The notes below the pieces were generated by a model. The model saw nothing but the letters and a program-made list of their open reading frames with translations. It was not told where the DNA came from and did not search any database. Of a stretch of DNA of 33,372 nt, positions 8,122 through 32,808 are shown piece by piece (the stretch's first letter is position 1; each line of letters opens with the position of its first letter). The translations under genes and the position numbers were made by a program. The stretch comes from Deltaproteobacteria bacterium. Lineage in GTDB: Bacteria > Desulfobacterota > Desulfobacteria > Desulfobacterales > C00003060. The DNA lies in the NCBI GenBank assembly GCA_019309815.1, contig JAFDFO010000001.1, positions 1 to 33,372 on the forward strand, read 5' to 3'.

Positions 8122-8300
8122 TTGAAGCTCCCCGCAGTCCCGCCATAGCGGGACAGGGAATGTTCTGCTCGACGGCAGTGCCTCGCAGCGACTGTGAGGA
8201 ATTCTGCCATTCTTAGATTGCTTGCATCCCTTGCTCCGCACGGGTATGCAAACTTGAATAACAGCAGTTGGTTACTCAGGCGCTCGCTATTGCAGTTCAA
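8122..8300 (+). mobile_element. MITE-like intergenic element, copy A
   Basis: TTGAAGCTCCCC...GCTATTGCAGTTCAA; shares ATGTTCTGC...ACGGCAGTGC.TCGCAGCGAC...AGGAA..CTGCCATT and GCTATTGC(A/G)GTTCAA with 32381-32575; hairpin GTCCCGC-CATA-GCGGGAC near the left end. Confidence 0.65.
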
Positions 8301-11843: not shown

Positions 11844-11867
11844 CCCCGCGGCAAGCCGCGGGGAGGG
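11844..11867 (+). terminator. GC-rich hairpin downstream of the S41 peptidase gene
   Basis: ccCCGCGGcaagCCGCGGgg immediately after the stop codon; no clear T-tract. Confidence 0.4.
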
Positions 11868-23947: not shown

Positions 23948-23953
23948 GGTTCT

Positions 23954-24207
23954 TCTCCAATTTAGTTGGAGAAGAGGGTCCAAGGATTCAAGGGTTTGTC
24001 TTCTAAAAACTTCATTGGCGCCGTTAACATTCTTTCGATTTCTGCGTTGGCTTTTTTGGTGTACTCAATTCGCTTTTTTCAATGAAGCCCAAACCTCCTG
24101 CCAACAAAATCTGGGTTGCTTTCTTTGAATATTTTTTTGCTTTTCACTTGAATCCTTGGATCCTTGAACCCTTGAACCCTCTGGGCTCACACCTGCTCAA
24201 TTGGAGA
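23954..24207 (-). repeat. MITE-like repeat, unoccupied copy, carrying a degenerate C-terminal remnant of a four-helix-bundle (S23/avd-like) gene
   Basis: Bounded by 9-bp inverted repeat TCTCCAATT (23954-23962) / AATTGGAGA (24199-24207); its reverse complement closely matches 32246-32763. Contains CCTTGAA-type minisatellite. Confidence 0.75.
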
Positions 24208-24265
24208 TGACACATTTATTCTACCCCAACTAACTGCAGATAGTCGGGAGATGATCCGGAAGTAA

Positions 24266-32193: not shown

Positions 32194-32245
32194 AAATACG
32201 GATCATCTCCCCATTAGTTGTAATTAAGGCCAAATAAAAGGGTTG

Positions 32246-32763
32246 TCTCCAATTGAACAGGCGTTATCCCAGAGGGGTCAAGGGGTCCGGGATTCAAGGG
32301 TTCGAGTGAAATACTTTAAGAACTACTGAAGGATCCAGGGGGTCGAGGGTCCAGGGATTCAAGTGAAAAGCAAAAAAATATTGAAGACCCCTCCAGCAAG
32401 CTGGAAGTAATGTTCTGCCTCACGGCAGTGCTTCGCAGCGACCGAAAGGAACACTGCCATTTTCAGAGTCGCACGCTAACCTTTATCCACACTCTGGCGG
32501 GCCGCAGCCCCGCTTAACGGGATCTCTGCTAGGCTCCGACAAGCTACGGGGAATGCGCTGGCTATTGCGGTTCAAAGAAACGAAGCCAGATTTTGTTGGC
32601 AGGAGATTTGGGCCTCATTGAAAAAAGTGAATTGGGCACACTAAAGAAAGACATCGCAGAAATCGAAAGAATGTTAACGGCGCTGATAAAGTCTTTAGAA
32701 AACAAGCCCTTGAATCCTTGACCCCTTGATTCCTCGAACCCTCTTCTCCAACTAAATTGGAGA
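32246..32763 (+). repeat. MITE-like repeat, second copy (inverted relative to 23954-24207), interrupted by a ~190-bp insertion
   Basis: TCTCCAATT (32246-32254) / AATTGGAGA (32755-32763) ends; contains QILLAGDLGLIEKSELGTLKKDIAEIERMLTALIKSLENKPLNP*, a truncated four-helix-bundle C-terminus. Confidence 0.75.
32381..32575 (+). mobile_element. MITE-like intergenic element, copy B, nested in the repeat above
   Basis: TTGAAGACCCC...GCTATTGCGGTTCAA; homologous to 8122-8300; absent from the otherwise matching repeat at 23954-24207. Confidence 0.7.
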
Positions 32764-32808
32764 AGAACCAAAAATACTGATTTTCACTATTCAGTCGTCC
32801 GATAGCAG

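Follow-up and report, generated by a model that had tools for sequence, protein, structure and literature searches.

A putative single-strand-mobilised miniature element of Desulfobacterales with predicted in-frame copies in conserved genes

A 190-bp insert that splits a repeat in the window (the whole 33,372-nucleotide stretch analysed, positions 1 to 33,372 of contig JAFDFO010000001.1, assembly GCA_019309815.1) is, as judged by sequence comparison, a member of an independent dispersed family and not part of the repeat that hosts it. We interpret the family as a non-autonomous miniature element of Desulfobacterales that is mobilised in trans by a Y1 HUH transposase and whose in-frame survivors within genes are translated, a reading to which we give a probability of about 0.6. 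On this view a Y1 HUH transposase of IS200/IS605 or RAYT type, acting in trans, would cut the element out as single-stranded DNA and insert it elsewhere. Among insertions into genes, only those whose orientation, phase and length maintain an open frame would persist, and these would be translated as ∼ 30–46 extra residues.

The host repeat at ∼ 32233–32769 (minus strand) carries the insert with repeat sequence on both flanks, and an inverted copy at ∼ 23948–24230 (plus strand) is uninterrupted at the empty site TTTGAA/TATT (a slash marks the insertion point throughout), so that the occupied and empty sites seen within the window in a preliminary description are confirmed. Matches to the 24-kb copy cover 32233–32311, 32330–32385 and 32571–32769, and the ungapped arms of the two copies are 86–94% complementary. 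On the plus strand the junction reads AATA/TTGAAGACC...TATTGCGG/TTCAAAG versus the uninterrupted AATATTCAAAG. In the functional orientation (R, read on the minus strand), the occupied site is TTTCTTTGAA/CCGCAATAGCC...GGGGTCTTCAA/TATTTTT versus TTTCTTTGAATATTTTT in the 24-kb copy. Written without duplication, the insert (CCGCAATAGCC...GTCTTCAA) is 190 bp long and lies at 32381–32570 (minus strand); two bases are common to both junctions, so a 2-bp TT/AA duplication is indistinguishable from none, in keeping with the earlier limit of at most 2 bp (TT). The same boundaries recur across copies, which bears out the nearly exact boundaries first described. The TTGAA...TTCAA ends first proposed are both present, but only one belongs to the element: TTGAA at the left end in R orientation (32571–32575, minus strand) is retained target, found in empty sites and, as TGAA, before the left end of nearly all copies, whereas the other is the element terminus. 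The left hairpin is expanded and rearranged in this copy; its region has a guide-like CATT at the foot (32552–32555, minus strand). The right subterminal hairpin, ACTTCCAGCTTGCTGGAGGGG, occupies 32388–32408 (minus strand), with a guide-like CATT at its foot (32409–32412, minus strand). We take the 32-kb copy to be an old one; it is expanded, intergenic and nested within another repeat. That host repeat is itself a dispersed family of ∼ 40 copies with ends TCTCCAATT...AATTGGAGA, and it appears to derive, by internal deletion, from an element that carries a full 23S_rRNA_IVP/four-helix-bundle gene, present as a 142-aa ORF at locus L254 on contig C213 of the same genome.

The BLASTN check proposed in the preliminary description gave 46 matches to the insert in its own 2.88-Mb genome (best non-self E=8.6e-81), a recurrence far beyond chance. 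Most of these lie outside the host repeat in unrelated surroundings, and the copies are mostly 80–90% identical to one another. With a covariance model of the canonical form, 43 matches were obtained in the same genome and 136 in G001, a congener assembled as a single contig, where the median spacing is ∼ 14 kb; copy number per genome ranges from dozens to > 100 in these uncultured sulfate-reducing bacteria. Matches are present in 16 of the 22 genomes of the genus, counting that of the window, and beyond the genus in two other families of the order. Scanning GTDB with an exact pattern gave 114 stretches; the ones listed come almost entirely from MAGs that carry the labels Desulfobacterales, Desulfobacteraceae, Desulfosarcina, Desulfaltia or Deltaproteobacteria. 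The viral contigs searched gave 0 matches.

Occupied and empty sites can be paired well beyond the window. About 20 host-repeat copies of the same genome are empty at TTTGAA/TATT, and copy C208 is occupied at a second site instead, CCTTGAA/TCC. A GxxExxY-type (PDDEXK_3) gene of Candidatus Desulfaltia bathyphila (L137) contains a 114-bp copy, and its orthologue in Desulfaltia sp. E21 (L214; 90% identity over 393 bp) is empty at exactly CTTGAA/TTAAAG. Similarly, truA is occupied in the sister MAGs G040 and G042 and empty in their close relatives G041 and G053, whose genes are 89–91% identical to that of G040 on both sides of the site; the insert is also absent from truA in five more genomes. Together with exact boundaries and subterminal hairpins, the empty sites uphold the original description of the insert as MITE-like, that is, a non-autonomous mobile element. 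They also bear on whether the sequence might be a structured RNA, terminator or regulatory palindrome and not a mobile element at all, which the stable hairpins and the mostly extragenic location would suit. We consider this scarcely credible given the precision of the occupied and empty sites, the copies within coding genes, the occurrence of all combinations of neighbouring-gene orientation around copies and the lack of any match in an Rfam search with the element. As the primary nature of the sequence it is refuted by the empty sites; a secondary role of this kind is possible.

The canonical unit is 114 bp, TTGAA/CCGCAAAAGCGAGCG-CATT-[CCCCGCAGCTTGCTGCGGGG]-TTAGCGAGCGAATCTAAAAATGGCAAACTTCCTTACGGTCGAA-GATT-[CCCTGCAGCTTGCTGCAGGG]-AGCTTCAA/W, with asymmetric ends and two subterminal hairpins, each 3′ of (C/G)ATT. 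The left subterminal hairpin described at first therefore exists but has a counterpart at the other end. Neither size nor interior is fixed across the family: copies run from 47 to about 230 bp, with further size classes at 47–48 bp (one hairpin), 80 bp, 138 bp and up to ∼ 230 bp, which look like the outcome of hairpin modules lost or gained. The hairpins covary across the family, including the helix equivalent to the right hairpin of the 32-kb copy: 95.8% of cells pair, both-side changes number 27 versus 8.3 in shuffles, and no slid version of the pairing approaches the true register. Global folding of the whole insert was not significantly better than that of shuffles, a point against the preferred reading. 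Among scored copies the left foot is CATT in 65/67 and the right foot GATT in 30/49 and CATT in 13/49 (together 43/49). In the pooled flanks, TGAA stands before the left end in 169 of 171 cases, and the base after the right end is T or A (+1 W) in 102 of 106. The GTDB subset was chosen with TTGAA in the pattern and right ends were chosen with CTTCAA; since the pattern already contained these motifs, only the BLAST-found set and the empty sites give unbiased evidence on the target. The comparisons place the insertion point exactly 3′ of TTGAA, with no clear duplication of the target. A classical DDE MITE with 5-bp TTGAA/TTCAA inverted repeats would account for the outermost bases, which do make a short inverted repeat, and a 2-bp AA/TT duplication is possible. 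However, empty sites hold TTGAA once, placing it in the target; beyond TTGAA the ends are not inverted repeats, and there is no duplication beyond the ambiguous AA/TT. A DDE origin is therefore very improbable.

The arrangement matches that of IS200/IS605 ends. In IS608, TTAC is retained on the left and TCAA forms the terminus; guide tetranucleotides lie at the hairpin feet on the 5′ side, and there is a +1 base preference (PMC5934647). The present element resembles IS608 and ISDra2 in bearing a subterminal hairpin at either end, each preceded by a tetranucleotide on its 5′ side, in inserting 3′ of a short retained target without duplication and in its +1 base preference, and its terminal TCAA is the same as that of IS608 (PMC5934647). 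By analogy it may work like an IS200/IS605 element, and the layout of its ends is consistent with HUH mobilisation. It differs in its target (TTGAA versus TTAC or TTGAT) and in having neither tnpA nor tnpB inside; we do not class it as a member of IS200/IS605, since nothing that was searched contains a tnpA gene with such ends. A point against strict guide pairing is that the right foot varies (GATT/CATT) while the terminus stays TCAA.

No transposase is present in the window, as noted at the outset. Inspection of ∼ 80 Y1 loci and 20 Y2 loci and a TnpB search in the genus yielded no gene inside these ends, and no TnpB gene was found in that search. The Y1 gene with matching ends that the preliminary description proposed to look for was not among the ∼ 80 loci, and none of the inspected Y1 loci from the genus or from 18 other genomes that partly overlap with it has the element ends. 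Its suggestion of an HUH/Y1 passenger agrees with the end anatomy but lacks a Y1, Y2 or TnpB gene within these ends. The genome of the window has two Y1_Tnp matches, one degenerate and one RAYT-like; the latter is intact and is accompanied by its own, different palindrome family. Congener G006 has element copies and no Y1 match. These absences (own genome, genus and 18 others), the Y1-less G006 and the lack of orientation bias in G001, where copies show no orientation, strand or replichore bias along the chromosome, all count against HUH mobilisation. The mobiliser could be an unlinked Y1 enzyme acting in trans, or one since lost. Long left-to-right intervals were considered as autonomous elements and proved to be two separate copies around ordinary genes.

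Two other histories bear on the missing transposase. The family might be a passenger of an IS91-type (Y2) rolling-circle transposase, likewise tetranucleotide-specific without duplication, and Y2_Tnp genes do occur in 11 of the 22 genus genomes, the Y1-less G006 included. Yet none of the 20 Y2 loci bears the element ends, the one copy nearby being an insertion into a Y2 gene remnant, and the genome of the window has no Y2_Tnp match; hairpins with guide-like feet at both ends also suit Y1 better, and we regard a Y2 passenger as improbable. Alternatively, the family could be a relict of REP/REPIN type whose own transposase is gone, with copies persisting by descent and recombination and genic copies being survivors of old insertions, now immobile. 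The absence of a linked transposase anywhere searched and the mostly 80–90% identity among copies of the genome speak for this, and CGTC-type REPs likewise have no dedicated transposase (PMC3733652). The element is, like REPs and REPINs, short, high-copy and hairpin-rich, and RAYT-type genes occur in the same genomes. Its hairpin foot, however, is CATT/GATT, without the GTAG/GTGG or CGTC tags that define REPs (PMC6006769, PMC3733652); it is not associated with RAYT genes, and copies flanking a cognate RAYT gene were not found at the inspected loci. Moreover, relatives at 89–91% identity differ in occupancy and near-identical canonical copies are present in several genomes, which argues that insertions are recent on the genus scale. 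We therefore consider a relict unlikely, although a good deal less so than a Y2 passenger, and retain Y1 mobilisation in trans as the preferred reading.

The preliminary description overlooked that the element has a protein-readable frame and resides in frame in conserved genes of relatives. In R orientation and phase 0 the canonical unit is a stop-free frame of 38 codons (PQKRAHSPLLAAGLASESKNSKLPYGRRFPAACGGELQ), and its other two R frames contain stops. When copies were gathered irrespective of frame, eight were found by inspection inside recognisable genes (the gene-edge copies L011, L065, L066 and L067 being excluded from this set). Seven of the eight (L137, L138, L151, L172, L177, L221 and L222; 114, 123 or 129 bp) are in R orientation and phase 0 and leave the gene open, and the eighth disrupts a KilA-N/ORF6N-like gene (L155). 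The chance of at least 7/8 at random orientation and phase (p = 1/6) is ∼ 2e-5. The in-frame genic copies follow the peptide pattern ...E-PQKRAHSP...GELQ..., have lengths that are multiples of three and add ∼ 38 amino acids to the predicted proteins. A protein search of 14 genomes with the 38-mer revealed ∼ 18 more long open frames running through the insert, two or three of which (L365, L366, L355) are less certain, with a partial peptide match or a position near the gene end. Pfam and NCBIfam matches that adjoin or span the insert identify the genes as TruA, LpxK, RecB, RecC, FtsX, TrpE, RimP, an RNB-domain RNase, an SRP54-type GTPase, a TIGR03960 radical SAM protein, a CbiE/CbiT-like methylase, asparagine synthase, a ComF-like protein, bactofilin, FecR and a polyketide synthase. 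Four of these cases (methylase, asparagine synthase, bactofilin and ComF) were found in G047, G057 and G051, which, judged by contig coordinates, seem to correspond to G002, G015 and G006 of the same genus as the window.

Segments that align to solved homologues flank the insert in both TruA and TrpE. One MAG has a TruA insert of 114 bp and the other one of 138 bp, in frame in both, the genes being 90.5% identical. Assembly chimeras are an unlikely explanation, given that the MAGs are independent and the frames intact. By sequence, the copies lie in frame within otherwise intact conserved genes of relatives. We attribute the excess of in-frame copies to survivorship, because frame-breaking insertions into needed genes are lost; the element's own contribution is to be readable through at all.

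To our knowledge, protein-coding palindromic elements are recognised mainly in obligate intracellular Rickettsiales, and their means of movement is unexplained. Rickettsia palindromic elements (RPEs) and the Wolbachia palindromic elements are short palindromes, intergenic and coding, whose open frame is fused in frame into conserved genes (PMC2229807, PMC10969869). By description, the present element is alike in being palindromic and ∼ 100–150 bp long, in its dispersal over intergenic and genic sites and in its in-frame fusion, and by analogy it may work like these coding palindromes. It differs in its hosts, which are free-living and unrelated Desulfobacterales, in its fixed TTGAA target without clear duplication, in its two short subterminal hairpins and in showing one invariant orientation and phase in genes. 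The literature covered, which took in only a minority of subscription papers, contains no report of coding palindromes from these lineages or of the element sequence. A family comparable to RPEs would thus exist in sulfate reducers that are free-living, and it has a fixed target and exact empty sites in orthologous genes. More tentatively, and with some doubt, we speculate that a single-strand (HUH-type) miniature element became a protein-coding parasite of free-living bacteria, in which the combination of a fixed target (TTGAA), a single open frame and hairpin modules sized in triplets allows it to settle in important genes as a translated, tolerated and inherited insert of 38–46 residues. 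If this is true, the RPE phenomenon would acquire a defined target together with a candidate mechanism of transposition. The end anatomy points to single-strand transposition, and both the mechanism of mobility and the tolerance of in-frame inserts become testable. For annotation, conserved predicted proteins of these genomes would carry selfish-DNA inserts.

The window holds a second, diverged copy at 8122–8295 (minus strand; 24.8–29.8 bits with the covariance model), with ends and target as in the family and the target TTGAA beside it at 8296–8300 (minus strand). An isolated perfect palindrome, CCCCGCGGCTTGCCGCGGGG, at 11844–11863, just beyond an S41-type protease ORF, is similar to the left hairpin of the element but has no element ends. 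Elsewhere in the genome, a RAYT-like Y1 gene (L062; contig C333, ORF 1459–2478) has a long palindrome, ACTAGGGGACGTCCATGA...TCATGGACGTCCCCTAGT, on both sides, which is a separate REPIN-like family. Several contigs end inside host-repeat-type copies. On contig C112 (L005, ∼ 1460–1614) an element copy in the host repeat has flanks from different repeat positions, which suggests recombination between two occupied repeat copies. In G001, a single-hairpin copy (L306, 929637–929689) lies inside a remnant of an IS91-type Y2 transposase gene.
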